From positions 26,110 to 90,109 of the forward strand of contig CALMVZ010000018.1 in the NCBI GenBank assembly GCA_937873155.1: 64,000 nt of DNA, read 5' to 3'. The position numbers and the translations under genes were made by a program. Below are positions 5,446 to 60,494 of the stretch, in pieces. Under the pieces are notes generated by a model that did not search any database, had not been told where the DNA came from, and saw only the letters and a list, made by a program, of their open reading frames with translations. The number at the start of each line of letters is the position of its first letter. Position 1 is the stretch's first letter. Source of the stretch: an uncultured Bacteroidota bacterium (lineage in GTDB: Bacteria > Bacteroidota > Bacteroidia > B-17B0 > Aurantibacillaceae).

Positions 5446-5970
5446 TTAAAAAAGTTTTATTGTAGGCTTAAATTTATTCAATAAAAACCCATTTTCATCC
5501 ACCCACTCCGGCATCGCAAAAAGTTTTTCCCGGAACCCCGGAATTTTCACCGCTTTAATCCTTCCGGTTTTTACAACAGATCTCAAATAAACCGACAGGG
5601 TTGTTTTCGGATCGTTGTAAAAAGAATACTGCTTATCCAGTTTCAGGAGGTGGTTGTGAATCTCCTTACTGGTAAGGGGTCTGTTTTCAACTGAAAGCAG
5701 GAAGACAAACTTGGTCGAGTAAGGCCAGTCGGCCTTAAAACCTTCAAAATTTAGCCCTTTTTCTGCCTTTTCAGGGCTTTTCTCCTCCGCCGTGGTGGTG
5801 TTTGTCTTATCCAGTTTCTCCTGGAGCGTGTCGAGCTCTTCCCGCAATTCCAAAATGTGGTCAATAAGCTCATTTTCCGACCATCCTTCGAATTCCTGAC
5901 GGTCTTCCTGCCGTTTTAAATGGCGGTATTTGTGCTTCCACGCTGATTTTTTTGGTGTATTCTCGCTCAT
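5446..5970 (-). CDS. Winged-helix-like regulator of element 1
   Basis: 174 aa. The basic N-terminus is followed by a short helical segment (WSENELIDHILELREELD) and a C-terminal half that reads like a winged helix (PLTSKEIHNHLLKLD, then LSVYLRSVVKTGRIKAVKI with a beta hairpin). The element 2 gene at 42241-42741 is clearly homologous over the whole length and is also divergent from an XRE/ImmA-type gene. The arrangement resembles a lysogeny switch. DNA binding is inferred from fold-like patterns, not from a family match. Confidence 0.6.
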   Translation of the reverse strand: MSENTPKKSAWKHKYRHLKRQEDRQEFEGWSENELIDHILELREELDTLQEKLDKTNTTTAEEKSPEKAEKGLNFEGFKADWPYSTKFVFLLSVENRPLTSKEIHNHLLKLDKQYSFYNDPKTTLSVYLRSVVKTGRIKAVKIPGFREKLFAMPEWVDENGFLLNKFKPTIKLF

Positions 5971-6151
5971 CTATATTTTATCTATAACAATTTAATATAA
6001 GTTCTTTTATTAATCTAAATACAATTAATAGTATTTCTAAAACAAATCTATATCTTTTTTATATCACTTTGACACAGGTAAACTAAAATTCCAAGTCAAA
6101 AAAGTTTTCTGATTGTAAATCAATATAATACACTTTTTTAATAACTATTTT

Positions 6152-6193
6152 ATGCACATTTTAATACACGATATGCAAATCTTTATACCTTTG
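6152..6193 (+). promoter_or_regulatory. Promoter and putative operator of the XRE/ImmA-type gene, element 1
   Basis: TACCTTTG at 6186-6193 fits the Bacteroidota -7 box TAnnTTTG, 29 bp before the start codon. Just upstream are two direct copies of ATGCA (6152-6156 and 6173-6177), 21 bp apart. The same pair occurs upstream of the element 2 homologue (42940, 42960; 20 bp apart). Two-turn spacing and conservation suggest an operator. The rest of the AT-rich 251-bp intergenic region (5971-6221) shows no gene. Confidence 0.5.
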
Positions 6194-6221
6194 ATTTCGG
6201 AAACGATTTTTAAAAAGCAAG

Positions 6222-7256
6222 ATGGTTCAACTACAAAAAATAAATCCAAAAATGTTAATGCTCGCCCGTGAAGCAAGAGGTCTTACTCAACTTGAACTGG
6301 CAGATCAGGCAGGAATTAACCGTTCCAATATCAGCCGATTTGAACAGGAGTTCACCGGGCTTACGGATGATGTGCTTGAGAAATTAATCAAAGCTCTTCA
6401 GTTTCCTGAAGTTTTCTTTTCACAGGAACAGGAAATACTCCCGCCCGCATTATACCGCAGACGTGATAAAGTACCTTCAAAAGTGCTTTCCTATATCGAT
6501 GCAAACATAAACATCTACCGCATTAACCTGCACAGGCTTATTGATGCCATGAAAATGGAAGCACCCAAATTACCAATGCTTCCTGTTTCAGAAACAGGAT
6601 CACCTGCTGAATCAGCGATGCGCCTCCGTAAACAATGGAAGGTTGCCAAAGGTGAAATTCCAAATCTTACAGAGTTATTGGAGTCAAACGGCATCATGAC
6701 ACTTGCTGTAGATTTTAAAACAGACCGTGTGGACAGCAGAAGCATTTTGATTGATAACCAGTTTCCGGTAATCTTTTACAACAAGACACTTCTTGGTGAC
6801 CGTTTACGATTTACACTCGCCTATGAATTAGGACACATCGTTATGCATACAAGACAGGCGTTTCTTTCAACGGATGAAGTCGGACATGAAGCTAATCTGT
6901 TTGCTGCTGAATTCCTGATGCCGGAAAAAGATATCAAAGGAGAATTTAAAGAACAACTCACACTCGATGTGCTTGCACAGATGAAAGCAAAATGGAAAGT
7001 ATCCATGCAGGCACTGTTATACCGTGCAAGCGATGTGGATATGCTTACCGATAATCAAAAGCGATACATCATCGGGCAGTTCAATGCTTTAAAAATAAGA
7101 AGAAGAGAACCGCCTGAACTGGACGTGGTAATTGAAAGAGGGAACTTGATTCGTGACATGATGACCAAATACAGAACAAAACAAAAAATGAGTCTCAAAC
7201 AAATTGCCGAATTCTTCTGCCTGCATGAGGATGAGTTTTTAGCAAGATACAATTAA
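6222..7256 (+). CDS. XRE repressor fused to ImmA/IrrE-like (M78) domain
   Basis: 344 aa. Residues 8-62 are an XRE helix-turn-helix (LTQLELADQAGINRSNISRF). Residues about 180-280 are an ImmA/IrrE (Peptidase_M78) domain with AYELGHIVMH at 200-209. Fusions of this type act as phage repressors and anti-repressor proteases. Oddity: the first histidine of HExxH is tyrosine (Y201) here and in the element 2 copy, so zinc binding or proteolysis may be lost or altered. First gene of the rightward early region and probable lysogeny regulator. Confidence 0.85.
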   Translation: MVQLQKINPKMLMLAREARGLTQLELADQAGINRSNISRFEQEFTGLTDDVLEKLIKALQFPEVFFSQEQEILPPALYRRRDKVPSKVLSYIDANINIYRINLHRLIDAMKMEAPKLPMLPVSETGSPAESAMRLRKQWKVAKGEIPNLTELLESNGIMTLAVDFKTDRVDSRSILIDNQFPVIFYNKTLLGDRLRFTLAYELGHIVMHTRQAFLSTDEVGHEANLFAAEFLMPEKDIKGEFKEQLTLDVLAQMKAKWKVSMQALLYRASDVDMLTDNQKRYIIGQFNALKIRRREPPELDVVIERGNLIRDMMTKYRTKQKMSLKQIAEFFCLHEDEFLARYN

Positions 7257-7284
7257 CAACATAGTAACGATAAATTTTAGATAT

Positions 7285-7518
7285 ATGAGTATGAAAGTGA
7301 GTATGAGAATCGGCATCAAGCCGTACACAAAGAAAGAGCTTGCAGTGCTTTATGAGTTAAGTCCAAGAGCATTCTACACCATGTTTAAACCGCATGAAGA
7401 TGCCGTTGGAAAAAAGTTAGGAAGATACTACTCTGTAAAACAAGTTGAGGATATTTTCAACAAGCTCGGTTTACCACCCTGCCTGTTGAATGATGAATTT
7501 GAAAAAGCAAAATCATGA
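7285..7518 (+). CDS. Small DNA-binding-like protein, KPYTKKELAVLY type
   Basis: 77 aa. PYTKKELAVLYELSPRAFY followed by a positively charged turn and QVEDIFNKLGLPP reads as a short helix-turn-helix protein of the Bacteroidota DUF4248-like kind. The element has a second member at 8826, and element 2 has two (44062, 45175). Its position just after the repressor gene suggests a delayed-early regulator. DNA binding is an inference from the pattern. Confidence 0.6.
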   Translation: MSMKVSMRIGIKPYTKKELAVLYELSPRAFYTMFKPHEDAVGKKLGRYYSVKQVEDIFNKLGLPPCLLNDEFEKAKS

Positions 7519-7534
7519 AAATAAAAAACAAGTT

Positions 7535-7969
7535 ATGAAAACCGAACAGAACGAACACCAAGCGGTGCAGCCACGATTATTTAAACAGGATTTAAAATTT
7601 ATGAACTGGTGGCATGTGACAAACGACTATTTAAAAACAACTTCTTTAACTCAGGATGAGAAAAAAGAAGTAATGATACGGATACATGATTTTTCACTTC
7701 ACCTGCAAAACACAATCCTTCATTATTCTGCTGAAATCAAACAACACAATATGCAGACGTATGAATCGATTGAATCAGGATTAAAAGAAACACTCCGCAG
7801 AGCAAAAATAAGTATGGCCCGAAACCACAGATTTAACAATGTGTTTGCAGGATACTGGAAATTTCTTGCGGGAGTTTTAAAAAATGAATCAGAAATCTTA
7901 AACGATGATAAATTAAAAACTGTCTTTCTCAATTTTGATAAAACAGTTGATGCTCTTCAGGTAAATTAA
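7535..7969 (+). CDS. Hypothetical early protein, 144 aa, element 1 only
   Basis: Helical soluble protein that I do not recognise. The start chosen is the ATG at 7535 (MKTEQNE); the frame opens earlier (7490) but that would overlap the previous gene. Tryptophan-rich opening (FMNWWHVTNDYL) and amphipathic helices follow. There is no counterpart in element 2, which goes straight from the small HTH gene to a terminator. It ends just before a strong terminator. Confidence 0.55.
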   Translation: MKTEQNEHQAVQPRLFKQDLKFMNWWHVTNDYLKTTSLTQDEKKEVMIRIHDFSLHLQNTILHYSAEIKQHNMQTYESIESGLKETLRRAKISMARNHRFNNVFAGYWKFLAGVLKNESEILNDDKLKTVFLNFDKTVDALQVN

Positions 7970-7989
7970 AATACCTTTTACAAAACATT

Positions 7990-8018
7990 AAGCCGGGTTC
8001 TGCCCGGCTTTTTTGTTT
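7990..8018 (+). terminator. Rho-independent terminator of the early unit, element 1
   Basis: Perfect 8-bp stem AAGCCGGG / CCCGGCTT with a 5-base loop (7990-8010), followed by a T-rich tract. Lies 20 bp after the stop at 7969. Element 2 has a different hairpin in the same place (44342). Confidence 0.85.
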
Positions 8019-8030
8019 TATACACTTTTT

Positions 8031-8183
8031 AAAAGGTTCAATAAGGTTCAAAAAAGTTTTTTTGATACGGTTAAGTACAGTTGAGTACAGTTAACTACAC
8101 TTAATTACAGTTAGTAACAGTTGCACACAGTTAGATACAGTAATATACGATAACATACACTTAACTACAGTTGAGTACAGTTG
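8031..8183 (+). repeat. Helically phased 10-bp repeat array(s), element 1
   Basis: Two families follow each other in the same 10-bp register. At 8031-8050 are two units of nnAAGGTTCA. From 8061 to about 8180 are 12 units with consensus TTRRnTACAG (best units 8071, 8081, 8161, 8171; weaker ones such as taatatacga at 8141). One unit per helical turn means all sites face the same side of DNA, as for cooperative binding. The array ends about 34 bp before the promoter-like TTTGT at 8214. Too short-period for CRISPR. An origin or activator array are both possible. Confidence 0.85.
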
Positions 8184-8203
8184 TCGGCACGCTCAGTTTT
8201 TAG

Positions 8204-8218
8204 TTGACGGAACTTTGT
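8204..8218 (+). promoter_or_regulatory. Promoter-like TTG-N7-TTTGT before the 188-aa gene
   Basis: TTG at 8204-8206, seven bases, then TTTGT at 8214-8218, preceded by a T-run. Element 2 has the same T-run and spacing at 44535-44549, and both virion-operon promoters share the TTG-N7-TTTGT core. It is about 40 bp before the start codon at 8257. The canonical TA of TAnnTTTG is missing, which would fit a promoter needing an activator bound at the adjacent array. Confidence 0.5.
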
Positions 8219-8256
8219 CCTGTCAAACAAAATCAAGTAACTAAAAACATCATCAT

Positions 8257-8823
8257 ATGAGCGCAATTAAAAAAACAAAAAAAAGAAATCAGTCAAAAGG
8301 AAAAGTAATTCAACTGCGATTAATTCCAAATGAAAGCAATCAGCAAAAAGAAAAACTGGTAAACGGTTTATGGAAAGTTGCACAAAGCGCACTTTGGAAT
8401 GGCAGAGATTTTTCAATCAGCGAACAGGAAGAATTAAAACAACTCGTTGCTGAACATTTTGAAAACAACAAAAACATCAAGCGTAATTTCAAAGACCTTG
8501 TTGAGCGCATCTGTTTAGCTAAACGCTTTGTATCCCGCAGAAAAGGAAGATACATCTCCAAACCAATCGACTGGTTAAACATCAACTACAAAAACGGATT
8601 ATCCGGTACAGCTTCTTGGTTAGAAGATGTTAAAGAACAACGCAAATCCGTACCTCATTACAACGAAGGCATTACAACACTTGCCAACGGAATTTTGAAA
8701 TACATGGAGTCACCAAACATCATCGTGTTTCAGAGATACCGCAGGATGCTTCTTGAGCAAAAACAAGCCGACCTGCTTTCCATTTTTCAGATTACCATCA
8801 TTAACCTTCAATACGGACTTTAA
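8257..8823 (+). CDS. Conserved element protein, 188 aa, unknown
   Basis: Very basic N-terminus (KKTKKRNQSKGK), then a helical body with conserved CLAKRFVSRRKGRYISKPID. Homologous to element 2's 191-aa protein (44599-45174) over almost all of its length. It is followed 2 bp later by a small HTH gene, and in both elements the pair lies between a phased repeat array and the virion-operon promoter. That place and the basic character suggest a regulatory or DNA-related role. No known family recognised. Confidence 0.6.
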   Translation: MSAIKKTKKRNQSKGKVIQLRLIPNESNQQKEKLVNGLWKVAQSALWNGRDFSISEQEELKQLVAEHFENNKNIKRNFKDLVERICLAKRFVSRRKGRYISKPIDWLNINYKNGLSGTASWLEDVKEQRKSVPHYNEGITTLANGILKYMESPNIIVFQRYRRMLLEQKQADLLSIFQITIINLQYGL

Positions 8824-8825
8824 TC

Positions 8826-9044
8826 ATGTCAGAAGAAACAAAAAATAAAAACGGCTTTATGATCCGTGCTTACACAAAAAAGGAATTGCGCCAGTTGTAT
8901 GGTCTTCCAAATTCCACTTTTAAAAGATGGTTACTTCCTCTGCGCAGCATGCTGAAAGCGCAGAGGAACAACTGGCTCACGGCAGCAGAAGTTGAACTCT
9001 TTGTAAAGGAATACGGATATCCCGGTGAAAAAACATTCAGCTAA
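8826..9044 (+). CDS. Small DNA-binding-like protein, AYTKKELRQLYG type
   Basis: 72 aa with AYTKKELRQLYGLPNSTFKR then WLLPLR, the same motif as the protein at 7285 and element 2's 44062 and 45175. The pattern resembles short excisionase/DUF4248-type helix-turn-helix proteins. Its stop lies inside the start of the next repeat array (9041 on), which precedes the virion operon. It is therefore a good candidate for the activator of that operon; this is inference. Confidence 0.6.
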   Translation: MSEETKNKNGFMIRAYTKKELRQLYGLPNSTFKRWLLPLRSMLKAQRNNWLTAAEVELFVKEYGYPGEKTFS

Positions 9045-9100
9045 TAAAGTTCAATAAGAACCAAAAAGAACCAATAAGGCTCAATAAGGTTTAAAACAGG
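9041..9100 (+). repeat. 10-bp phased array before the virion operon, element 1
   Basis: Six consecutive 10-bp units with consensus TCAATAAGGT: ctaataaagt, tcaataagaa, ccaaaaagaa, ccaataaggc, tcaataaggt, ttaaaacagg. The same family appears as two units at 8031-8050. The array starts about 80 bp before the promoter TTTG at 9127-9130, matching the 78-79 bp geometry of the CAATnnCTAC arrays in element 2. Confidence 0.8.
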
Positions 9101-9116
9101 AATGCACGTCAAACCC

Positions 9117-9131
9117 TTGCCACACCTTTGT
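9117..9131 (+). promoter_or_regulatory. Virion-operon promoter, element 1
   Basis: TCAAACCCTTG followed by seven bases and TTTGT (TTG 9117-9119, TTTGT 9127-9131). The flank from TCAAACCC to CCG is almost identical in element 2 (45462-45490), while surrounding bases differ, which marks it as functional. Transcription would start a few bases downstream, leaving a leader of about 40 bases ending in an unusually strong GGAGG Shine-Dalgarno at 9166-9171 for a Bacteroidota host. Confidence 0.55.
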
Positions 9132-9175
9132 TCCGTGATTAAGAACAAAAACTAAAAAAACAAAAAGGAGGTAAC

Positions 9176-9361
9176 ATGAAAGAAAATCAAACAAGCACAG
9201 ACAGCACAAGCAATATGTTTCTCACCGGAACAATTCTGCTTGCCAACCTGGACTACTCAGGTCTTGCCGATTATGCGCTTAAAGCACTTGTAGGCGGAGT
9301 GATATGGATGTCATTCAAAGTAGCGGGAGATTATATCAGTGAACGATTAAAAAGAAAGTAA
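9176..9361 (+). CDS. Small membrane protein, first gene of the virion operon
   Basis: 61 aa. Hydrophobic segments NMFLTGTILLANLDY and YALKALVGGVIWMSFKVA are followed by a basic tail (SERLKRK). Preceded by a perfect GGAGGT ribosome site. Nearly identical at the protein level to element 2's 46100-46282, one of the best conserved pairs. The stop overlaps the next start by one base. A virion membrane protein is a reasonable guess; nothing enzymatic is visible. Confidence 0.65.
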   Translation: MKENQTSTDSTSNMFLTGTILLANLDYSGLADYALKALVGGVIWMSFKVAGDYISERLKRK

Positions 9362-9852
9362 TGGAGACTTGGAAAAAAATAGCAGTAGGAACAGTAGTGG
9401 GCGGTGCGCTCATTGGCGGGACGGTGTATGTGGTGCGCCTGAACAAGATGAACGCAGAACTGGAAACTGTACCGATGGCAAAAATACACAAGCTTGATCT
9501 TTCAGGGTTAACAATCAGAGTTGACGTGCAGTTAAAAAATCCGACACGCACTCCATTTAAAATCAAGTTCCCTTTTATCAAGCTCGTGTACAAAGGCACA
9601 ACGGTTGGCTCTTCTCAGGTAATAGACAAAGACATCAGCATCCCCGCTTTCGGTGAGGCAGTGGTTGAACAAATGATGATACGAGTTCCGCTGATGAATA
9701 TTTTTTCTCTGTCGGGTAGTTTGTTAAGAGCCATACAAAACAAAGAGCCGGTTAAGATTGATGTCAAGACACTCACAACAATTGATTTGGGATGGAAAAA
9801 AGTTCCTTACACAAAAACAGATACACTAACACTTAGTCAGCCTAAAGCATAA
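9361..9852 (+). CDS. Membrane-anchored LEA type 2-like protein
   Basis: 163 aa. An N-terminal membrane helix (IAVGTVVGGALIGGTVYVV, residues 6-24) precedes a beta-rich domain with LSGLTIRVDVQLKNPTRTPF, the pattern of LEA type 2/WHy domains (hydrophobic strand, xVxLxNPxxxP). Such domains form seven-strand beta sandwiches. Homologue in element 2 at 46284-46835. The gene shares one base with the next start. Probably a structural or membrane-associated component. Confidence 0.6.
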   Translation: METWKKIAVGTVVGGALIGGTVYVVRLNKMNAELETVPMAKIHKLDLSGLTIRVDVQLKNPTRTPFKIKFPFIKLVYKGTTVGSSQVIDKDISIPAFGEAVVEQMMIRVPLMNIFSLSGSLLRAIQNKEPVKIDVKTLTTIDLGWKKVPYTKTDTLTLSQPKA

Positions 9853-11666
9853 TGGAACGCAGAGAAGAAGTAAAAATAAAAAGCGGTGCAGAGTTCGATC
9901 ATCTTTTCCCAAAGGCAATGCTGATGACCATTACCAAAAAGAAAGGAGCAACAGTTTCTGATACAATTCGCTTCATTCCGCAGGTAGTAAGAGAAACGCT
10001 TTTTCATACTGATAAAATTGCAAAGCAGTTAAAGCGAAACACAGTGTACGAAACCTGCAAAGCGATATGGCATTTTGTTTACGACCACATTGCTTACCGC
10101 AAAGATGAAGATGGAAAGGAACAAATCAGAAGTCCGGCAAGAGCATGGCACGACAGGAAATACGGAGTGGATTGCGATTGTTACACGGTGTTTATCAGCA
10201 GTATCCTGAGCAATTTAAAAATCAGACACATCCTGCGAATCACCAAATACAAAGAGGATCACTTTCAGCACATCTACCCGATTGTTCCTTTAGGCGATGG
10301 CAGCTATATCACCATCGATTGTGTAGTGAGACATTTTGATTACGAAGAACCCTACAGCGAAAAAAAAGACACAAAAATGGACTTAGAATATTTAAACGGA
10401 GTCAACGACTCCTCAAACAAAAACATCGATGCTGTTGAACTGATCGGAATATATGATGACCGTGAAGCGATGGCAGAACTCGGCAGGCTTTTCAAAAAGA
10501 AAGCCGGAGGTGGCGCACCAAAACAAAAAAGCGGAGGCTTCAAACAAGTCTTCAAAAAAGGAGCAATAAAAGAAGCCTATAAAAAAGGCGGTATCAAAGC
10601 GGTGGCAAAAATGGGATTGCACATCACCAACCGTTTAAACCCTGCAACAGTGCTTATCCGGAACGGAATTTTAATCGCTCTTAAAACAAACATGTTCAAG
10701 ATAGCTCAACGTCTGCGCTATGCATACCTGAGTGATGATGAAGCCCGCAAGCGTGGCATTGACATGGCAAAGTTTGCAAGACTGAAACAGGTTAAAGACA
10801 AACTGCAAGGCATCTTCTACGGTGCAGGTGGTATCCCTGAAAACTTCCAAAAGGCTATCCTTACCGGAAGAGGTAATCGTGACAAACAAGTAAGCGGACT
10901 CGGATATGTTGCCGATGACATGAGCGGGCTTGACAAATATTCTTCAACAGAAGAGTTGTTAGGTAGCGATATCTATAAAAGCGAAGCCTTGGATCAGTTA
11001 AACGGACTTGGTGAACCCTACTCGGCAGCAGCATCCGTAACAGCAGCAACCACAATCCTTACAGCGATTGCGGGATTATTAAAAGGAATCGGAAACATCC
11101 TTCCTAAAAAAGACAAAGGAGCAAAAGACTTTGAAGAAGGTGGTGGCGAAGGTGGTTCAGTCGAATCAGGCGGCGGTGGAGAAAGCGGTGGAGAAACTTC
11201 TACCTCTTCATCAGGAGAAAGTGGTGGATCTGCGGATATGAATTTCGACAGCGGAAGTTCAAACAGCAGTAAACCGATGGTTACCACGAAAACAAGTGCG
11301 CCTTCACAAAACGAAGATAGTGGTGGCGGTGGAGACAGCGGTGGCGGAGATACAGGAGGAGACAGTTCCGGTGATTCAGGAAGCGCAAATAAATCTTCAA
11401 ACAGAGAAGCTTCATCAGGAGGTGATACTTCAAAGCCTGAAGGATTCTGGGACAAGAATAAGAAATGGATCAAGCCAGTAGGCATCGGAGTTGGCGCATT
11501 AGGCTTGATATACGCAGGATACCGAATGGTCACCGGAAGTAAAAAAGAAACGGCGAAACCCGCACTTTCAGGAATTCCAAAGAGCAAGAAGCAAAAGAAG
11601 AAAGGAGGTAAAAAGGCAGCGGTAAAGAGTAAAAAACAAAAGAAGCAGGCAGTTGAATTGCTTTAA
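9852..11666 (+). CDS. Transglutaminase-fold cysteine enzyme with Gly/Ser-rich linker and C-terminal TM
   Basis: 604 aa. Residues about 65-165 fit a transglutaminase-like fold with a visible Cys-His-Asp triad: C110 (VDCDCYTVF), H140 (HFQHIYPIV), D156 (YITIDCVV). A basic helical middle (NRLNPATVLIRNG at 260-272) follows. Then comes a Gly/Ser/Glu-rich stretch (about 425-540), a membrane helix (KPVGIGVGALGLIYAGY) and a Lys-rich tail. Junctions carry VSGLG (347-351), LNGLG (383-387) and LSGIPK, which resemble protease sites. It could be a maturation protease, a protein cross-linker or a wall peptidase. Element 2 copy: 46839. Confidence 0.7.
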   Translation: MERREEVKIKSGAEFDHLFPKAMLMTITKKKGATVSDTIRFIPQVVRETLFHTDKIAKQLKRNTVYETCKAIWHFVYDHIAYRKDEDGKEQIRSPARAWHDRKYGVDCDCYTVFISSILSNLKIRHILRITKYKEDHFQHIYPIVPLGDGSYITIDCVVRHFDYEEPYSEKKDTKMDLEYLNGVNDSSNKNIDAVELIGIYDDREAMAELGRLFKKKAGGGAPKQKSGGFKQVFKKGAIKEAYKKGGIKAVAKMGLHITNRLNPATVLIRNGILIALKTNMFKIAQRLRYAYLSDDEARKRGIDMAKFARLKQVKDKLQGIFYGAGGIPENFQKAILTGRGNRDKQVSGLGYVADDMSGLDKYSSTEELLGSDIYKSEALDQLNGLGEPYSAAASVTAATTILTAIAGLLKGIGNILPKKDKGAKDFEEGGGEGGSVESGGGGESGGETSTSSSGESGGSADMNFDSGSSNSSKPMVTTKTSAPSQNEDSGGGGDSGGGDTGGDSSGDSGSANKSSNREASSGGDTSKPEGFWDKNKKWIKPVGIGVGALGLIYAGYRMVTGSKKETAKPALSGIPKSKKQKKKGGKKAAVKSKKQKKQAVELL

Positions 11667-11693
11667 TAAAACAACAAAGAAAAAATCAAAAAC

Positions 11694-12320
11694 ATGAAGA
11701 AGAAAAATTCATACGAGAAAAAAGCGCAGAAAAAACAACTCCTTGAAGGAGTCGCTGCGGAGCATGCCAAAGGCGATATCAAAAAGACCGCACTGGAAAC
11801 AGGTCGTGATATTTTGATCGGTGCAGTTGGCGGTGGCTTGGCAGGTGCGGTACTCGGACGTTCTTCCTTCTTGGTGGGAATTGCTGTAACAGGTGTTGGT
11901 CATTACATGGGCAGTAATGGAGCAGCAGCTTTCGGTGTGGGCATGATGGCTTCGGGCGGTTATCAGGCAGTTGCCGGGGCAATGAACGGAACAGAAAAAG
12001 AAGGCTTCGAAGGCGTGAAAGAACGCATGGCAGCTTTCAAAGAAGAGTTCAAACGAAAACTGTTCCTTGACAAAATCATCAAGAGTAAAAAGAAAGAAGA
12101 AGATAAATCCGAAGAAGGCACAAATGGTATGGGCGAAGTTCAATACTTCACTTATCCCAACGGCAAAGAACTGGAAGGCGCAGCCGATCACTTGAATGTG
12201 TTAGACCGCATCGAAAAACAGGTGGAAGAATCAGCCAAAAAATTTGAAGCCAAACAATCTGTTTCAGGCGGATTGGAAGGAGAAATGGGAATGCTGGACA
12301 TCAGTGAACAGAATTTCTAA
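11694..12320 (+). CDS. Glycine-zipper membrane protein
   Basis: 208 aa. Basic N-terminus, then a Gly/Ala-rich hydrophobic block of about 55 residues (ILIGAVGGGLAGAVLG, FLVGIAVTGVGHYMG, AFGVGMMASGGYQAV) that could form two or three close-packed helices. A charged helical tail follows, containing TNGMGEVQYF. Homologue in element 2 at 48757-49437 keeps the same block and TNGVGEVQYF. Likely a virion membrane component placed just before the capsid candidate. No enzymatic motif. Confidence 0.6.
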   Translation: MKKKNSYEKKAQKKQLLEGVAAEHAKGDIKKTALETGRDILIGAVGGGLAGAVLGRSSFLVGIAVTGVGHYMGSNGAAAFGVGMMASGGYQAVAGAMNGTEKEGFEGVKERMAAFKEEFKRKLFLDKIIKSKKKEEDKSEEGTNGMGEVQYFTYPNGKELEGAADHLNVLDRIEKQVEESAKKFEAKQSVSGGLEGEMGMLDISEQNF

Positions 12321-12381
12321 ACCTGAAAAACATCATCATCACAAAAAAGAAAATAATTAATAACCATAAAAACGAAACATT

Positions 12382-13101: not shown

Positions 13102-13109
13102 CCGGAGTA

Positions 13110-13160
13110 CTGAGTCCGAAGTTACGCAGCCACATGTGCTGCGTAACTCGGAGGACTCAG
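13110..13160 (+). promoter_or_regulatory. Long hairpin immediately after the capsid candidate, element 1
   Basis: CTGAGTCC (13110-13117) pairs with GGACTCAG (13153-13160). Inside it AGTTACGCAGC pairs with GCTGCGTAACT (13138-13148). There is no T-run, so it is more likely an mRNA stabiliser, processing site or attenuator than a terminator. A smaller AGTGTC/GACACT hairpin follows at about 13167. Element 2 has an unrelated hairpin in the same place (50287-50326). Confidence 0.7.
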
Positions 13161-13214
13161 GGCATCAGTGTCAGGGACACTTCCAATTATTAAAAACAAT
13201 AAAAACAAAAAGAG

Positions 13215-52807: not shown

Positions 52808-52817
52808 AAGAAACGAA

Positions 52818-53594: not shown

Positions 53595-53606
53595 GCAAAA
53601 GTCAAA

Positions 53607-54398
53607 ATGGAAGCAAACGCAACAATACAAAATAATCAGGAAGCATCTGCAAAGAAAAGCAGAACCAAAAAAGTGGTGCTGTTAGGGCTTGGAACTTTGG
53701 CTTTAGGAACACTTGCTTTTTTCGGCTTCAAACATTTTACAAAAAAACAAAACGAAAACAATGACGAAACCGATCAAACAACTGATGATTTGGATAGCAA
53801 AACGACTGTTCAGAATCCTCCTCGTAATAAGCCTCGTACCGGCTTACCTTCTCCTGGCATTGGCGATGCCTTTCCTTTGCGCTTCGGCTCTAAAGGAGAT
53901 AAAGTTAGACTTCTTCAGCAGGCTCTTATCAGAACCTATGGTGCTGGTATTCTTAAAAAGTTTGGTGCAGATGGAGACTTCGGCTCAGAACTTCAATCCG
54001 CACTCAGAAGCAAAGGATATGGAGTTCCGCTTTCGGAATCCGAATACAACAAAATCACCGGGAAAAAAGAAGAAGCACAAACACCGCCACCGCCACTCGT
54101 AACATTTGATCCGGCTGCGATTGCCAAAGCGATCTATACCGCAATAACCGGAAAGGATTTTAATACGACCATCACTCTTTTAAAAGCGATCAAAAGCACA
54201 ACAGATTATTCCTTGGTAAGTGAACAACTAAAAAACAATTACCGCATCGCCGGAGTAAGGCAAACGCTGGTAAACGCATCACTTGGCACATTCACCGAGA
54301 GTTCTCAAAAAGCAAAAGTGCAGGAAGCCTTTAAGAACATGGGATTAAAATACGATGGCACAAAGTGGTCACTCAGCGGGTTCAGAAATAACACTTAA
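53607..54398 (+). CDS. Membrane-anchored peptidoglycan-binding protein, element 2
   Basis: 263 aa. Membrane helix VVLLGLGTLALGTLAFFGFK, acidic linker, PG_binding_1-like domain (LRFGSKGDKVRLLQQALI, FGADGDFGSELQSALRSKGY) and a helical domain ending KWSLSGFRNNT. The element 1 copy carries an extra SH3-like tail after the equivalent SLSGIE. The point of truncation coincides with the recurrent L-S-G motif. Confidence 0.65.
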   Translation: MEANATIQNNQEASAKKSRTKKVVLLGLGTLALGTLAFFGFKHFTKKQNENNDETDQTTDDLDSKTTVQNPPRNKPRTGLPSPGIGDAFPLRFGSKGDKVRLLQQALIRTYGAGILKKFGADGDFGSELQSALRSKGYGVPLSESEYNKITGKKEEAQTPPPPLVTFDPAAIAKAIYTAITGKDFNTTITLLKAIKSTTDYSLVSEQLKNNYRIAGVRQTLVNASLGTFTESSQKAKVQEAFKNMGLKYDGTKWSLSGFRNNT

Positions 54399-54410
54399 CG
54401 AAAAGAACAA

Positions 54411-54857
54411 ATGAAAATTAACAGGAACATAAAATTCATCGTGATCCATTGTACTGCGACTCCTTCCAATACCACGATTGAATCCATCAAACGCTATTGG
54501 AAAGAGCAACGTGGCTGGGGAGATACTCCGGGCTACCATTACATCATCGAGCGCAACGGAAACATTGTTCAATTGCTGGATGAAAAACAAAACAGCAATG
54601 GTGTTTACGCCCACAACTCGGCCTGTATCAACATCGCTTACATCGGTGGAATTGACAAAGACGGAAAGCCAATGGACAACCGATCCGATGCACAAAAGCA
54701 CGCCATGTTCGATAAGATCGTGGAATTGACGGAGAAGTACAAAGGCGTGGAAGTATTAGGCCACAGGGATTTTCCCGGTGTAAAAAAAGCCTGTCCTTCT
54801 TTCGATGTAAAAAAATGGCTTTCAGAATACGAGCCGGATTTAGAAAGCGCAGAATAA
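54411..54857 (+). CDS. N-acetylmuramoyl-L-alanine amidase (endolysin), element 2
   Basis: 148 aa. VIHCTATPSNTT with the first zinc His, GWGDTPGYHYIIERNG, and LGHRDFPGVKKACPSFDV with His and Cys eight apart. Same T7 lysozyme-like layout as 17229. Starts the lysis set in element 2. Confidence 0.88.
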   Translation: MKINRNIKFIVIHCTATPSNTTIESIKRYWKEQRGWGDTPGYHYIIERNGNIVQLLDEKQNSNGVYAHNSACINIAYIGGIDKDGKPMDNRSDAQKHAMFDKIVELTEKYKGVEVLGHRDFPGVKKACPSFDVKKWLSEYEPDLESAE

Positions 54858-54878
54858 TAAAAAGAAAAAGAGAGAAAA

Positions 54879-55652
54879 ATGATTCTGCAAAAAATGAAAG
54901 CGATAATGAGGCACAAGGGCTTCAAAATATTCAGCCGTCCCTTTGAACTTAATATAGTAGGACTTAGAAGTAAAAGCACAATCCCGAATCGCTTTGATGA
55001 TGAGATTCACATCTTTTACAAAGTATCCAATTTGAACTGGTATTATCACATCTTCAAAGCCACCACCGATCCGGGGACGTTTTGGCTTCGGCAGCCGCTG
55101 CAACCGCAGGGCACAGCGATCCTTCAGGAAGGGCAGTTCCTTAACGCTTACGGTATGGGCTTGCATCGAGGGAAGTACCTTGCACTCGTGCAGACTGGAC
55201 CCGTTGCAATCATTAGGGACTATAACAGGGACGCTATACTGGATTTTAACAATGGAAATAAGACAACAGGTTATTTCGGAATTAACGTACATCGTGCTAA
55301 TAAAACAGGGACAACTAAAACTATTGATAAAAATTCAGCCGGTTGTCAGGTCTTTGAGAATGCAGACGATTTCTCCCTTTTCCTCAAGCTTTGCCAAAAG
55401 CATAAAAGTTTATACGGTAATCGCTTTACTTATTCCCTAATCGACTTCCGTGCAGTAAGAAGACAAAACGCAAGGTATGTGGCAGCAGGGATTGGCATCG
55501 CAGGGCTACTCGGATTAGGAATCCTCGCCATCACACAAAAAGAAAAAATAAAAAACATCGTGGAAGAAGTCGGTGATTTCTTTTCAGATATCATTCAAAC
55601 AAAAAATAATTATGAACCTCAAACAGATCATTCATCAAATCCTTCAGGATAA
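54879..55652 (+). CDS. L,D-transpeptidase-like cell-wall enzyme, element 2
   Basis: 257 aa. FYKVSNLNWYYHIFKATTDP, WLRQPLQPQGTAIL, GINVHRANKTGTTK and KNSAGCQVF as in element 1, with a C-terminal membrane helix (AAGIGIAGLLGLGILAI). The holin-like gene begins inside its last 41 bases. Confidence 0.6.
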   Translation: MILQKMKAIMRHKGFKIFSRPFELNIVGLRSKSTIPNRFDDEIHIFYKVSNLNWYYHIFKATTDPGTFWLRQPLQPQGTAILQEGQFLNAYGMGLHRGKYLALVQTGPVAIIRDYNRDAILDFNNGNKTTGYFGINVHRANKTGTTKTIDKNSAGCQVFENADDFSLFLKLCQKHKSLYGNRFTYSLIDFRAVRRQNARYVAAGIGIAGLLGLGILAITQKEKIKNIVEEVGDFFSDIIQTKNNYEPQTDHSSNPSG

Positions 55653-55836
55653 AGACGGCAACTTTTCGCTCCGTGAAGCCATTGCCTTAATCTATGTGCT
55701 TATGAGCATTATCGCTTGGGTATCGCAGCAGTTCTTTGGAATGCCCGTGCCGGAGTATATGTTTTATTCCTTCATCAGTATGATCGGGGCAGCAGCCTTT
55801 GGTTACTCTCTCGAAAGGAAAAGCGGAAAAGAATAA
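55612..55836 (+). CDS. Holin-like membrane protein, element 2
   Basis: 74 aa from the ATG at 55612 that aligns with the element 1 start (the frame is open from 55573). DKDGNFSLREAIALIYVLMS, IIAWVSQQFFG and MFYSFISMIGAAAFGYSLE give two membrane segments. Overlaps the wall-enzyme gene. Confidence 0.7.
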   Translation: MNLKQIIHQILQDKDGNFSLREAIALIYVLMSIIAWVSQQFFGMPVPEYMFYSFISMIGAAAFGYSLERKSGKE

Positions 55837-55884
55837 AGTCCAGGAGACGAAAAAAATAATTCACTCATCAATTAAAAAAACAAT

Positions 55885-56523
55885 ATGAAAACAGTTTATA
55901 TCATCATCGCCTTTTGTGCGGGGCTATTTTTAGGACACCTTTTGTTTCCAACCGGAAAAACGATAAAGCCTCCAATTGCAGAAGCAGTCCAGCAAACGAA
56001 GGATAAATTAAATAAGATCGACTCGGCCATGTTTGAAGGCAAGGTTCAGTTTCTTCAGCAGAACGACAGCCTGAAGCGAAAACTTGAAGTTGCCAATAGT
56101 CTTTTGAGCATACACAAAAGCCTGTTGTTCTCTGAACGAAACAAAGTAGACCAACTCACGGGCAGGATCACAGCTTCGGCTTCTACTCAACGCGACAGTA
56201 CGCTTGCCGATAGTCTTTGCACGGAAATAAATTCGTTAAACGCAAAAACAGATTCTTTGATAAATGTTTTTGAGTGCAGGGACTCTGTCATGCAATCAAT
56301 GGTGGCGATAAGGGATTCACAAATTGAAGTTTGCGACCGATCCTACCGTGAAGTTAAAGACTTATTGCTTGAACAATCCATGAGAGAGCAGCAACTCACA
56401 GAAAACCTGAATGTCGCTTTAAAGCAACTGAAGCGAAAACGGGTGCAGAACAAAGTCCTTGCAGCCGGGATGCTCTTTCTTTCAGGAATAACAACAACTC
56501 TTTATATAAAATCACGACAATGA
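55885..56523 (+). CDS. Spanin-like two-anchor coiled-coil protein, element 2
   Basis: 212 aa. N-terminal membrane segment (VYIIIAFCAGLFLGHLLF), coiled-coil middle with several DSL and SLC units, and C-terminal membrane helix (LAAGMLFLSGITTTLYI). Same layout as 18674. No usable lipobox, so an inner-membrane-anchored variant or another assembly role is possible. Confidence 0.5.
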   Translation: MKTVYIIIAFCAGLFLGHLLFPTGKTIKPPIAEAVQQTKDKLNKIDSAMFEGKVQFLQQNDSLKRKLEVANSLLSIHKSLLFSERNKVDQLTGRITASASTQRDSTLADSLCTEINSLNAKTDSLINVFECRDSVMQSMVAIRDSQIEVCDRSYREVKDLLLEQSMREQQLTENLNVALKQLKRKRVQNKVLAAGMLFLSGITTTLYIKSRQ

Positions 56524-56723
56524 TCAACGAAAAAACAATCGTCTCCTCAGTTTCCCTCGCCGCTTCGCTGGCGACCTACTTCTATGCAAGAACAGTTCAA
56601 AAGGATGTAGTGCCTTATGTTATGGTCGGAGGTTTTATCGGGGCTATACTCGGAGAAGCAATAGCAGGGCTCGTTCTGCACGACGACAAAAAAAAGGATA
56701 AGGACAAAGACAAGGAAAAATAA
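56520..56723 (+). CDS. Small membrane protein, 67 aa, element 2
   Basis: NEKTIVSSVSLAASLATYFY and VMVGGFIGAILGEAIAGLVL, then a Lys/Asp repeat tail. Counterpart of 19318-19509. Start overlaps the previous stop (ATGA). Confidence 0.6.
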   Translation: MINEKTIVSSVSLAASLATYFYARTVQKDVVPYVMVGGFIGAILGEAIAGLVLHDDKKKDKDKDKEK

Positions 56724-56840
56724 CCAAAGCCAAGGGGCAAGGAGTTGATTACAGGAATCTGAAATAATTGACACCACCAATTTACTGATCGCAAAATAAC
56801 TCAACTCTTAATCTCCGGCTTTATAAACAACAAAACAAAT

Positions 56841-57398
56841 ATGGCTACAGAAATCGTAAACAATGGCGCAAGCCTCAAAATCACAACGGACGGTGATGCC
56901 CGTATCATTCTGAAATCACAGATCAAGGATGTAAACGTGCTTCGTGATACCATTATCAAAATTGATATTGGTCAGGGAGCATTAAACAACGTATATGTGG
57001 ATCAGGCAACCGTTACAAATCCAGCGAGTGTATCCGTAGAAGATTTGCGGGATAAAATTCTCGCAATGCTGCAAGGCAGCACAGCAGGACTGGCTACCGA
57101 AGTAAAACAGGACAATGAGATTGCTACCATTCAGGATTTGAAAGTCCAGGTATCGGATCTGCAAACCAAAGTCGGATCAGTGGACAACAAGCTCTTCTTT
57201 GAACCTGCTTTAATTGATGAAAACAATCCCAACACAGTTTACAAAGGCTATGCGCTTCCCGGTGCAAAGACTAATGAAGCGGTATGGGCTATTGAACGCA
57301 TCACTTCCAAAAAAGGCATCCTGTCTTACCAATGGGCTGGTGGTAACAAATCATTCAACAAGATTTGGGACAACCGTGCTGCTTTGATTTACAGCTAA
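56841..57398 (+). CDS. Structural protein, last gene of the virion operon, element 2
   Basis: 185 aa. KITTDGDARIILKSQIKDVN, TKTNEAVWAIER-like segment and the ending WAGGNKSFNKIWDNRAALIYS minus its last residue match the element 1 protein. The 117-bp gap before it holds no gene. Followed by a strong terminator. Confidence 0.6.
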   Translation: MATEIVNNGASLKITTDGDARIILKSQIKDVNVLRDTIIKIDIGQGALNNVYVDQATVTNPASVSVEDLRDKILAMLQGSTAGLATEVKQDNEIATIQDLKVQVSDLQTKVGSVDNKLFFEPALIDENNPNTVYKGYALPGAKTNEAVWAIERITSKKGILSYQWAGGNKSFNKIWDNRAALIYS

Positions 57399-57407
57399 AA
57401 TGAAAAT

Positions 57408-57442
57408 AAATTCCCTCCGGTGATTGCCGGAGGGAATTTTAA
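57408..57442 (+). terminator. Terminator of the virion operon, element 2
   Basis: 13-bp stem AAATTCCCTCCGG (57408-57420) / CCGGAGGGAATTT (57427-57439) with a 6-base loop, A-rich before and T-rich after, so it may work on both strands. Equivalent to 20083-20110. Confidence 0.85.
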
Positions 57443-57457
57443 TACAGAAAGAAATTC

Positions 57458-59494
57458 ATGAGAACACCGATCACATACTATGGAGGCAAGCAGTCGTTGC
57501 TGAAGTATTTACTCCCGCTTATTCCACCACACAAAATTTATTGCGAGCCATTCTTTGGTGGCGGGGCTTTGTTCTTTGCCAAACCAAAATCAGAAGTGGA
57601 AGTGATCAACGACCTAAATGGTGAAGTAATAAACTTCTTTAAGGTTGTAAAAACAAAATTCACCGAGCTGCAAAAAGAAATACAAGGCTCTCCTCACAGC
57701 AGGGAACTCTTTAAACGTGCGAAAGCGATATACGATTTTCCCGATATGTTTTCGGACGTTCAAAGAGCATGGGCGTTTTGGGTTTTAACCAATCAGGGCT
57801 TTGCCGGGATTATTGGCTCTTGGGGCTTTGGTAAAACGAATTCAAAAGAAAAAGCGGTGGCTGGTAAAAGAGATTCGTTCACCAAGGAATACGCCGAGAG
57901 AATGAAGACAGTCCAGGTTGAACACAACAATGCGCTCACAGTTATCGACCGCTGTGATGACAAGAGCGCATTCATCTATTGCGACCCTCCTTATATCGGT
58001 TCAGATCAGGGGCATTACGAAGGCTACTCTGAATCTGAATACGAAGCCTTGCTGAATAAGCTGGCGAAGCTGAAAGGTAAGTTCCTTTTAAGTTCTTATC
58101 CGAACCCGATCCTGAACAAGTTTATCAAGAAGTACAAATGGAAAGTAAAAAAAATCAGCAAGTCGGTTGCTGTTACCAAATTAACCGATAAACAGAAAGT
58201 GGAAATGATGGTTATGAATTACGACATCGACACTACAAAACAAATGAAAGGTTTAAATGGCACAGGAAAAATTACCGATGATAACATGAAAAAGAAAAAT
58301 CCATACTCAGATATCGCCAAGGAATGTATGCTCATAGATCGATTCCTTGCGTTTCACGATCAGATACTTTATAAAAACACCTTTGGAATTTTTATTGATG
58401 AGTTGCAAAAAGCAATCGATGATAAAAAGATCACAAAGAAGTCTCCGGCAGCTAAAGAGATAATGCTCATACAAACGGCAGCGGTGAACGCATTTAATAA
58501 TATGTACAACGCCACGCACTTTGTTTTGAAGCCGGCTACAATCAAACGTTTAAAGGCCGTTGTTGCGAAATGGCAAAATTCTCACGAAGATATCGATGTG
58601 AAATACGCAAAGAGTAAAAAGCAAACCAAAGCCTTAAATGGTATTACGCCTTCACCACAGGTTAATATCATGCCCAGTACGCAGTTTGCGAACTTACACT
58701 TTAACACCATCGGGTTTAAGGAACGCTGGCTTCGATTTATAGGCGATCCTGCGCCGGGATTCACAGCGATGGTGTTTGGTATGCCTAAAATGGGCAAAAG
58801 CTATCTGTGCGTGGATTTTGCGGGATATTTAGCCCGAAATCATGGCAAGGTGCTTTACGTTGCAAAGGAAGAGAAGCTGGACAAAACTTTACAGGACAAA
58901 TTGAAAGAAAAAGAGGTTGCCCACGAAAACTTAACGGTGGCCGATGGTATTCCTGCCGATCTGAGTCCTTATGATTTTATCATTCTTGACTCTGTAAATA
59001 AACTCGGTCTCACTCCAAAAGATTTGGAGAAGCTGAAAGTGGAGAATAAAGGAAAGTCTTTTGTTTACATCTTCCAGTGTACCAAGGGTGGGAAATTCAA
59101 GGGCAACAATGAATTCCAGCACGATGTGGATGTTGTTATCGAAGTACCGGAAATTGGAAAGGCTACTCAGTATGGCCGTTTCAATCAGGGAGGGGCAATG
59201 GACATTTTTGAAAATGCAACCGCACCTGAAAATCTGAATGGCTTGGATGGAAAACCAAAGTATCCCTCATGGACGATGCCAAAGTGGTTAAATGAGTTTG
59301 ATCACCAAAGGCTAAAACACATTTACGATCTGTACAAAGCAGGGGAAATGAAAGAAGCGTTTAACTATGCTTGCATGGAATGCGACACCGTTATTCGAGA
59401 GGAGATTCCCGGTGACGTTTGGCTGAAACTTGGAGGAACGCTAACCAAAGCCGGAGAAGAAAAACTGCGTAAGCAGAAGCAAAAAAAGAAATAG
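57458..59494 (+). CDS. Dam methyltransferase fused to RecA-fold ATPase
   Basis: 678 aa. Residues 1-262 are a D12-class adenine methyltransferase (ITYYGGKQSLLKYLLPLIPP, CEPFFGGGALFF, CDPPYIGSD). The junction reads MKGLNGTGKI (about 264-273). The ATPase part begins at KKKNPYSDI, has LNGITPSPQVN, Walker A GMPKMGKSY near residue 441 and Walker B YDFIILDS. It lacks element 1's N-terminal 150 residues and late domains but keeps the last domain (HIYDLYKAGEMKEAFNYA). In element 1 the two enzymes are separate genes. An LNGTG in the junction suggests proteolytic separation. Confidence 0.8.
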   Translation: MRTPITYYGGKQSLLKYLLPLIPPHKIYCEPFFGGGALFFAKPKSEVEVINDLNGEVINFFKVVKTKFTELQKEIQGSPHSRELFKRAKAIYDFPDMFSDVQRAWAFWVLTNQGFAGIIGSWGFGKTNSKEKAVAGKRDSFTKEYAERMKTVQVEHNNALTVIDRCDDKSAFIYCDPPYIGSDQGHYEGYSESEYEALLNKLAKLKGKFLLSSYPNPILNKFIKKYKWKVKKISKSVAVTKLTDKQKVEMMVMNYDIDTTKQMKGLNGTGKITDDNMKKKNPYSDIAKECMLIDRFLAFHDQILYKNTFGIFIDELQKAIDDKKITKKSPAAKEIMLIQTAAVNAFNNMYNATHFVLKPATIKRLKAVVAKWQNSHEDIDVKYAKSKKQTKALNGITPSPQVNIMPSTQFANLHFNTIGFKERWLRFIGDPAPGFTAMVFGMPKMGKSYLCVDFAGYLARNHGKVLYVAKEEKLDKTLQDKLKEKEVAHENLTVADGIPADLSPYDFIILDSVNKLGLTPKDLEKLKVENKGKSFVYIFQCTKGGKFKGNNEFQHDVDVVIEVPEIGKATQYGRFNQGGAMDIFENATAPENLNGLDGKPKYPSWTMPKWLNEFDHQRLKHIYDLYKAGEMKEAFNYACMECDTVIREEIPGDVWLKLGGTLTKAGEEKLRKQKQKKK

Positions 59495-59537
59495 ATTTCA
59501 GTGGGTTCTTTGACATATTGGAGTTGCTGTACGACAA

Positions 59538-59562
59538 AAGCCCTGCGGTGTCCGCAAGGCTT
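59538..59562. terminator. Bidirectional terminator between ATPase and ParB-like gene
   Basis: AAGCCcTGCGG, 3-base loop, CCGCAaGGCTT (59538-59562) is a nearly perfect stem lying between the convergent stops at 59494 and 59583. A second GCC/GGC pairing follows at 59565-59574. Confidence 0.65.
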
Positions 59563-59582
59563 CTGCCTGAAGGCCGAAACTG

Positions 59583-60494
59583 TTACTTTTTCTTTCCGCT
59601 TTTCTTTGCGGGACTCTTCTTAGCTGCTGGAGTAGCAGGGGTTTTACTTTTATCTACGAAGTAGCTTTCAGCGAACTGTTTGGCGTGTTGCCCGTTCTCA
59701 AAAGCGATCAGCATTTTATCAAGCACTTCTTCACGTTGTTTGAATACGTCCTTCCTTCCTGCAATGATATCGGCTATTTCCTCTGCCCATTTGTAAAACT
59801 TACCGAAGGACTGGCTTTTCACTTTCTTAGTTCCCACGTGCTTCGGAGTTGCTTTTGCCTTGCCGGATTCTTTTGCTGCCTGAATAGCGTTTTCAATTTC
59901 CTTCACCGCTTTTTCAGGATCACCTTTCACCGCTTGCATAATTTGAATTACTGCGTGTGCGCTGATCTTGCCATCCTTAATGAAGTTCTGAACCTTCACA
60001 GGAGCTTTAGCTAAAAGGATCAGGTTCTCAATGTAGCCCCTCGCTTTTCCGGTCTTCTTTACAATGTCGGTTACTTTCCATTCGAAGTTCAGCAGTCTGC
60101 GGATCACTTCGGATTGCTCCAGCATCGTAAAAGGTTTACCATCGTTATTGATCAGGAATTCCAAAGTACGCTCTTCCTCACTCATCGGGCGGTCTTCAAT
60201 GATCACCGGAACTCGCTCAATTTTGTGGCCTTTGGATAAGGCCAGTTTTACAGCCCTCATTCTTCGGAAGCCTTCACGCAACATTACCTTTCCATCCTTC
60301 AGGTAACCTTTGAGTGGGTTACGGATACCGTTCTCTACTATTGAGAGCATCAATTCCTCAACATTGCCGTAATCTTCACGAGGGTTTTTCTTTTCATCAA
60401 CAATAATTTGTGATGGCGGTACTAATGAATAGTTACCTGTTTGGAATGCAGTTGTTGCTGTCTTACTTCCTGTTTTTGTTTCTGCTGTTTTCAT
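59583..60494 (-). CDS. ParB/RepB-like partition protein
   Basis: 303 aa. N-terminal ParB-type domain (LVPPSQIIVDEKKNPREDYG, VENGIRNPLKGYL, LREGFRRMRAVKLAL in place of the GERRxRA box). HTH region follows (WKVTDIVKKTGKARGYIENL) with a helical part and a Lys-rich tail. ParB proteins bind centromere-like sites in segregation; some relatives are regulators or nucleases. No ParA is nearby. No counterpart is visible by element 1. It suggests a plasmid-like state or a regulatory role for element 2. Confidence 0.7.
   Translation of the reverse strand: MKTAETKTGSKTATTAFQTGNYSLVPPSQIIVDEKKNPREDYGNVEELMLSIVENGIRNPLKGYLKDGKVMLREGFRRMRAVKLALSKGHKIERVPVIIEDRPMSEEERTLEFLINNDGKPFTMLEQSEVIRRLLNFEWKVTDIVKKTGKARGYIENLILLAKAPVKVQNFIKDGKISAHAVIQIMQAVKGDPEKAVKEIENAIQAAKESGKAKATPKHVGTKKVKSQSFGKFYKWAEEIADIIAGRKDVFKQREEVLDKMLIAFENGQHAKQFAESYFVDKSKTPATPAAKKSPAKKSGKKK

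Follow-up and report, generated by a model that had tools for sequence, protein, structure and literature searches.

A window of 64,000 nucleotides (the whole stretch of DNA analysed), located on a 90-kb contig of an uncultured Bacteroidota bacterium of the family Aurantibacillaceae, contains two related elements, A and B, and a third copy is found on another contig, C10, of the same genome (G000; capsid gene at G000:C10:263978-264694). With a probability of about 0.72, A, B and the third copy are temperate phages without a tail that spread horizontally, with a capsid predicted to consist of single jelly rolls, probably an inner membrane, and perhaps distant kinship with Salisaeta icosahedral phage 1 (SSIP-1). 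The preliminary description of this DNA, made from its letters, had proposed two integrated, tailless, membrane-containing viruses; both elements are real, but the third copy has to be added to them.

The conserved 239-amino-acid (aa) protein, singled out for structure prediction in that description, gave a model with a predicted local distance difference test (pLDDT) score of 85, consisting of helices in residues 14-78 and one jelly roll in residues 82-239. The model resembles shell proteins of membrane viruses, with SPV1 first and the FLiP penton protein at Foldseek rank 4, in a comparison where absence from the match list does not exclude a family. The BFVD entry I1ZBH9 (211 aa, rank 4) has the length of SSIP-1 gp46 and ORF35. 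A search of PDB sequences gave no similarity to SPV1, and 1646 homologs of the protein were collected. The model suggests that this protein is the major capsid protein (MCP), of the single-jelly-roll type. The likeness to Tectiviridae, Corticoviridae and Finnlakeviridae that had been drawn earlier did not survive, since the MCPs of these families are double jelly rolls and the predicted model has one, and since no rolling-circle Rep family was seen among the proteins of A and B scanned with Pfam and PHROGs; the double-jelly-roll or Finnlakevirus reading was dropped for the same reasons.

A and B are collinear. BLASTP pairs 26 open reading frames (ORFs) of A with 24 of B at 32-81% amino-acid identity, all in the same order and orientation, as had been claimed for about 26 genes. 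The DNA has diverged, again as claimed, most repeat families shared by A and B having 71-78% identity (the exceptions are a 30-nt pair at 87% and one low-complexity family). Both elements start with a small divergent gene and the switch protein and end with a Dam methyltransferase and the ATPase, which are separate ORFs in A and one fused ORF (57458-59494) in B. The A ORFs at 13598 and 13833 both pair with the single B ORF 50775-51404; the 114-aa form of the second is also present in three DNA relatives of A (L005, L006 and L007), so the split goes beyond this one assembly. The RadC-cytosine methyltransferase fusion of A has no BLASTP partner in B; the same region is two ORFs in the C10 copy, and the RadC domain of G091 is joined to a Strawberry-notch-type helicase. 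The relatives L006-L008 align to A from 5431 or 5497 onward, the contig of L005 starting further inside the element. The span of the earlier description runs to 60494, but the ParB-like gene at 59583-60494, on the opposite strand just beyond B, falls outside the collinear block and has a relative in only one of 85 loci.

The position of most copies in their hosts is that expected of a temperate phage. In the C10 copy the order is prs, the element with its cargo, a serine recombinase and tRNA-Leu(caa). In the window genome prs and this tRNA gene are 43.3 kb apart (C10:248127-291454) and in two genomes of the same genus that have no capsid gene (G007 and G006) they are ~70-130 bases apart, as an empty site would be. 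The far side of tRNA-Leu(caa) also differs by ~4 kb, so the locus is generally variable, and two or more insertions may make up the 43.3-kb stretch. With its last 36 bases the 515-aa recombinase ORF extends into the 3' end of the tRNA gene. Nine regions with 11 element copies contain nine large serine recombinases, eight of which overlap a tRNA gene (Leu-caa three times, Arg-ccg, Arg-cct, Phe, Ser and Ala) with the tRNA 3' end toward the element; the ninth (G091 2958246-2959844) overlaps none and sits at the ATPase end. The same-genus genome G001 has its own element at the same tRNA-Leu. The span from ATPase to recombinase is ~29-41 kb in six copies, whose outer ends are not fixed. By this arrangement, eight of the 11 copies appear to be site-specifically inserted beside their own predicted recombinase.

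The three copies without a recombinase are A, B and G514:C13, and the contig of the last starts inside the element. A and B are likely stranded copies, because, unlike the eight other copies, they share their contig with no serine recombinase, and tRNA searches of the window and of contig positions 1-26200 were negative. No integrase demonstrably belongs to either of them. Integration of the dif type (XerCD) was rejected, as TTATGTTAA-like sites number 18 against 31 expected and the four end regions contain no inverted repeats of at least 12 nt within 200 bases. No convincing long direct repeats were found that could be att sites, although serine recombinases require little att-site repeat. 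The tandem tyrosine recombinases at 27751-29563 are unlikely to be the integrase of A or B, because such a pair recurs three times on the contig beside primase- and RHS-like genes and was not found near the other copies. These pairs (window 27751-32845; C18 8417-10241 and 15653-17463) with their neighbours, named by eye, resemble a separate mobile element.

Comparison of element and host DNA supports movement between genera. The longest DNA segment shared with A has 93.7% identity over 10.9 kb in L005, 86.7% in L006 and 85.8% over 11.0 kb in L007, the remaining shared segments having 71-83%; L005 and L006 are the copies of genomes G514 and G032, which belong to another genus of the same family. 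At the one core locus compared, rplY-prs, the genomes of L005, L006 and L007 (metagenome bins) have 73, 70 and 69% identity with the window genome, less than three genomes of its own genus, which reach 75%. In a maximum-likelihood tree of 92 capsid proteins, from which duplicated pieces of the window genome and certain second stretches had been removed, A and B fall in one 14-row clade, where B has its own starred group, and the C10 copy falls in another clade; three changes are needed to place the three copies of the window genome, and starred branches force all three. Insertion of other copies at tRNA genes and cross-genus DNA that is closer than the core locus bear out the earlier proposal of integrated virus-like elements in a Bacteroidota host.

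The same gene order is found well beyond this host. A capsid-alignment search of 84,980 species genomes gave 115 loci, and among the best 80 that were retained, 78 have Bacteroidota names and two are named just 'bacterium'. A TBLASTN survey of 85 loci, including three short pieces of the window's own genome and several loci cut by contig ends, found the protease-type gene in 84, the Gly-rich gene in 84, the 128-aa gene in 83, the 116-aa gene in 81 and the amidase in 63. Counting matches at any place in a record, the ATPase is present in 27 of 28; it stands at the operon end in 10 of 11 mapped copies, and the eleventh is truncated by the end of its contig. Of 87 genomes of the order, counting the window genome, 32 have the capsid gene (29 of the 62 good ones), and a single genome has up to four. 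The gene was also found in 17 of 60 relatives and, with a narrower profile, in three of 395 genomes drawn evenly from the phylum. Named genera with the block include Chitinophaga, Puia, Longitalea and Flavisolibacter; in Chitinophaga eiseniae Ak56, Puia dinghuensis, Longitalea luteola and Flavisolibacter nicotianae the ATPase frame is free of stops. In five copies that have diverged further, protease, capsid and 128-aa family still follow each other in this order; in four of the five an ORF separates protease from capsid and an LEA-type gene stands in front. A still more distant set (G012:C28, G017:C28 and G023:C63) has the protease, a further ORF or ORFs and the capsid, followed by two small proteins, with an ATPase match nearby in two of the three (one weak; the G023 contig ends first). 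The group is thus broad. Pattern scans of IMG/VR gave two loci, and neither 50,697 phage records nor 72,556 plasmid records gave a match to the capsid protein; a plasmid origin was dropped on the latter count. No description of these elements was found in open-licence PMC papers, among the matches listed, which together with their wide occurrence agrees with the earlier claim of an undescribed group; the kind is not wholly new, however, because the isolate SSIP-1 is linked to it by a structural gene. A further relative of the element ATPase lies at G000:C26:77804-79594; 70-98 kb of the same contig show no match to the capsid family.

SSIP-1 is described in reviews as an unclassified, membrane-containing phage with a 44-kb circular double-stranded DNA (dsDNA) genome, T=49 and two MCP types (PMC6356626, PMC6260650). 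Family profiles of the elements were compared with 56 of its 57 proteins (gp43 omitted) by hhalign. The protease family matches gp34 at 97% (E 7e-11, or 5.9e-12 with divergent members) and the ATPase matches gp40 at 96% (E 2.7e-9); other matches are helix-turn-helix (HTH) types at 73-81%, the rest are below 39%, and reversed decoys reach 13% at most. In the window genome gp34 matches only the three element proteases, weakly (E 4e-4, 0.006 and 0.3), and not the single Transglut_core protein. The ATPase link is weaker than it looks, as the best phage match of the A ATPase is a 636-kb uncultured phage (2e-19), followed by another uncultured record and SSIP-1 (6e-4). Profile comparisons gave no homology to an SSIP-1 capsid protein. 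The MCPs were taken as gp45 and gp46 from size and place; gp45 has no homolog except itself, and its poor model (pLDDT 34) has no fold match under E 0.001. The kinship thus rests on one gene and a layout likeness judged by eye, and not on the capsid; the elements are perhaps distant kin of SSIP-1.

A temperate life cycle can be proposed from this gene content. The M78/HTH protein would hold lysogeny, and upon induction the serine recombinase would excise a circle of ~29-41 kb. The 188-aa protein may initiate replication at iterated repeats, the capsid operon would make a shell of upright jelly rolls, likely over a membrane, and the transglutaminase-like protein may be a virion enzyme. The RecA-type ATPase would package or replicate the dsDNA, and lysis would be carried out by the amidase, the endolysin and small membrane proteins. 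Hydrophobic segments in seven A ORFs (a methyltransferase among them) and eight B ORFs, from hydropathy, are only suggestive of a virion membrane. For the origin, none of 200 shuffles is as strong as the repeats upstream of the 188-aa gene of A, and among the 63 loci with at least 300 bases upstream, 47 beat all 30 simple shuffles (35 at period 10, eight at period 11), a control that overstates the signal in AT-rich DNA; an iteron-type origin may lie there.

Several results weigh against the reading of the elements as tailless temperate phages akin to SSIP-1. PHM enzymes score nearly as high as viral shell proteins against the capsid model. The tandem repeats of A are missing at the corresponding place in B, where 56 of 200 shuffles score as high as the sequence itself. 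No serine recombinase is encoded on the 90-kb contig of A and B. Profiles of the capsid, 128-aa, 116-aa and Gly-rich families have no significant match to SSIP-1 proteins, gp40 prefers two other proteins of the window genome over the element ATPase, and the SSIP-1 host Salisaeta is in Rhodothermota (Bacteroidota/Chlorobiota group), not in Bacteroidota. Finally, defence-type cargo is present in three of five copies scanned, not in all.

Three other explanations of the block were considered. It could be a phage remnant domesticated by bacteria and kept as a particle (a gene-transfer agent, bacteriocin-like or another capsule) and not an infectious virus. Up to four capsid genes per genome and the near absence from the viral collections searched would fit, as would genome G050, whose two compact capsid operons (L102 and L103, 105 kb apart) come with a different lysozyme (GH108, tested in one) and, over the 20-40 kb examined, without any switch gene, amidase, methyltransferase or ATPase that BLAST could match, possibly by domestication or decay. 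G050 is, however, the sole such case seen, and the patchy presence, the cross-genus DNA identity of 94% against 73% at the core locus, the recombinases at different tRNA genes and the empty sites make domestication unlikely. A tailed phage, with portal, terminase and tail genes too diverged to recognise and the 239-aa protein as decoration protein, is the least probable explanation. The endolysin-like protein is common to tailed phages (the P2-like tailed phage ACA1 has the same endolysin), the cement protein of phage KHP40 stands at Foldseek rank 23 for the capsid model, and the best phage match of the ATPase is a very large uncultured phage. On the other side, the absence of terminase, portal, tail and tape-measure genes noted at the outset was upheld by profile searches: no portal, terminase, HK97-type capsid, tape-measure or tail family was found with Pfam in 20 of 29 A ORFs or with PHROGs in 22 of 29 A ORFs and eight B ORFs, four short A ORFs (7285, 8826, 13061 and 15425; 60-77 aa) lying outside both scans. 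Profile matches in A are to lysis proteins, methyltransferases, the switch protein and the ATPase, and its three longest ORFs are accounted for as ATPase, methyltransferase fusion and protease.

The cargo raises the third alternative, a mobile defence island whose capsid-like module serves a non-virion purpose, or a satellite that needs a helper phage. The scan covered part of the cargo genes and its results are profile names. In the C10 copy, the stretch between switch gene and recombinase encodes five proteins with PADLOC matches: MkoA (8e-150), MkoB, a DrmD/HKD-Snf2-type helicase, an enzyme resembling type IIG and, weakly, a restriction enzyme. A type I restriction set is present in one G032 copy, and two of four proteins in G012:C32 match (HEC-06/Orf5-like and type IIG). 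Three G020 proteins and one protein of a second G032 copy had no PADLOC match. Such cargo, together with the want of a certain packaging motor or replicase, favours this alternative, but the cargo is variable and not always for defence, and the protease, capsid gene, small proteins and lysis genes occur together in most of the 85 loci. Satellites usually carry less than such a set. A defence island or satellite is accordingly quite improbable, and the preferred reading remains that of temperate tailless phages.

A wider proposal goes further, and its chances are put at slightly less than even. The elements would belong to a deep, unclassified lineage of temperate membrane phages of the single-jelly-roll type, common in environmental Bacteroidota, which uses many tRNA sites and ferries cargo, including anti-phage defence islands, between genera. 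SSIP-1 would be its first isolate; the lineage would have escaped virus finders for want of a hallmark profile that detects it, and it may link bacterial and archaeal single-jelly-roll viruses. If this is true, tailless temperate phages are routine in some Bacteroidota orders, yet next to none are in the phage and virus collections searched; the orphan SSIP-1 gains relatives, the single-jelly-roll viruses gain a bacterial branch in their vicinity, and defence genes have a known vehicle. Since named strains carry the block, the group is directly testable.

The features of both elements are collected in Table 1. Of the repressor and full lysis set reported earlier, the HTH and M78 protein and the amidase are firm, whereas the holin/spanin-like proteins have no profile match. 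The peptidoglycan-binding-type protein also weakly matches phrog_1224 (A 0.002, B 0.005), which is described as endolysin in the category 'head and packaging'.

Table 1. Predicted features of elements A and B (positions in the window)
Feature	Position	Strand	Basis
Element A, collinear block	5446..25155	+ (first gene on minus strand)	BLASTP pairing with B
A: divergent 174-aa protein	5446..5970	-	homolog of B 42241-42741, 35% identity; no PHROG match
A: HTH and M78 (IrrE-like) metalloprotease, repressor-type switch	6222..7256	+	Pfam PF06114 2e-21, PF01381 8e-12
A: tandem TACAGTT-type repeats, ~10-bp steps	8065..8182	+	candidate origin iterons
A: 188-aa conserved protein adjoining repeats	8257..8823	+	candidate initiator, from position only; no Pfam or PHROG match
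A: 61-aa small hydrophobic-type protein	9176..9361	+	74/85 loci; hydropathy below cut-off used
A: LEA-type protein, N-terminal hydrophobic segment	9361..9852	+	PF03168 8.9e-5, under family cut-off; hydropathy
A: transglutaminase-like protein (protease)	9852..11666	+	hhalign to SSIP-1 structural protein gp34
A: protein with Gly-rich stretch, before capsid gene	11694..12320	+	84/85 loci; hydropathy cut-off gives no support for membrane nature
A: predicted MCP, 239 aa	12382..13101	+	helical N-part and single jelly roll (model)
A: 128-aa protein, candidate minor capsid/penton	13215..13601	+	83/85 loci
A: two ORFs, 75 and 114 aa	13598..14177	+	match one longer ORF elsewhere, mostly 153-209 aa
A: 116-aa conserved protein	14174..14524	+	81/85 loci
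A: operon proteins of 276, 61 and 240 aa	14508..16334	+	BLASTP to B; loci survey
A: peptidoglycan-binding-type protein	16336..17232	+	PHROG endolysin profiles, best 2e-6; PF01471 0.012, under cut-off
A: N-acetylmuramoyl-L-alanine amidase	17229..17672	+	PF01510 9e-20; phrog_822 2e-50
A: endolysin-like protein, C-terminal hydrophobic segment	17672..18412	+	phrog_3000 (unknown function) 4e-34; phrog_33083 (endolysin) 2e-15
A: three small holin/spanin-like proteins	18409..19509	+	assigned only by size, position and hydrophobic segments
A: RadC fused to C5-cytosine methyltransferase	20120..21946	+	PF04002 2e-36, PF00145 2e-68
A: Dam-type DNA methyltransferase	21947..22813	+	phrog_56 9e-73
A: P-loop ATPase, RecA-type by motif reading; candidate packaging or replication motor	22813..25155	+	phrog_6891 2e-18
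Element B, collinear block	42241..59494	+ (first gene on minus strand)	BLASTP pairing with A
B: HTH and M78-type switch protein	43001..44035	+	62% to A
B: transglutaminase-like protein	46839..48725	+	52% to A
B: predicted MCP	49488..50270	+	75% to A
B: amidase	54411..54857	+	81% to A
B: Dam methyltransferase and ATPase, one ORF	57458..59494	+	73% and 65% to two A ORFs

Other genes of the window lie outside the elements. Between A and B, 33254-36194 encodes a short prokaryotic Argonaute (PADLOC pAgo_I 4e-203) and a TIR-PNTD protein (1e-140), which we take to be a SPARTA-like defence pair. A second defence-type set follows at 36198-42161; it comprises a restriction-methyltransferase resembling type IIG (2e-222), an SMC-like ATPase and a small protein that looks HTH-like by eye. 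To the left of A, 97-3523 contains GTPase-like genes (by eye) and a GAP1-N1 protein (PF20012 5e-32), with no PADLOC match; it is perhaps a GTPase-based conflict system.

Among known viruses, SSIP-1 shares with the elements a dsDNA of similar size (43.8 kb against ~29-41 kb), the transglutaminase-like structural protein gp34 with sequence homology, possibly the P-loop structural protein gp40 of the same superfamily as the element ATPase, and a consecutive series of structural proteins, MCP-like or smaller in size (gp44-gp48). It differs in having two MCP types against one predicted capsid-type gene here and in that no integrase is named in its record. Helvetiavirae/Singelaviria (P23-77, SH1 and HHIV-2) also have two MCPs, whereas one capsid-type protein was modelled for the elements, and their packaging ATPase is of the HerA/FtsK type, whereas the element ATPase reads as RecA-type. 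The Finnlakeviridae and the PhiCjT23-like Flavobacterium phages are tailless membrane phages of Bacteroidota with temperate forms (PMC9719478). Their genomes are single-stranded DNA (ssDNA) of 6-9 kb, and contigs of the group reach 17 kb (PMC5894146). They resemble the elements in host phylum, predicted taillessness and temperate life and the FLiP penton near the capsid model, and probably differ in ssDNA, a double jelly roll, a rolling-circle Rep and dif-site integration. SPV1, of the Portogloboviridae, has the single jelly-roll shell proteins VP4 and VP10, an inner lipid layer, a ~20-kb circular dsDNA and no recognisable replication initiator (PMC8459092). Its host is archaeal (Sulfolobales) and there is no lysis, unlike the elements; it nevertheless gives the best VIA match of the capsid model, and single jelly-roll shell proteins, predicted for the elements, and the lack of a recognisable replication initiator are common to both.

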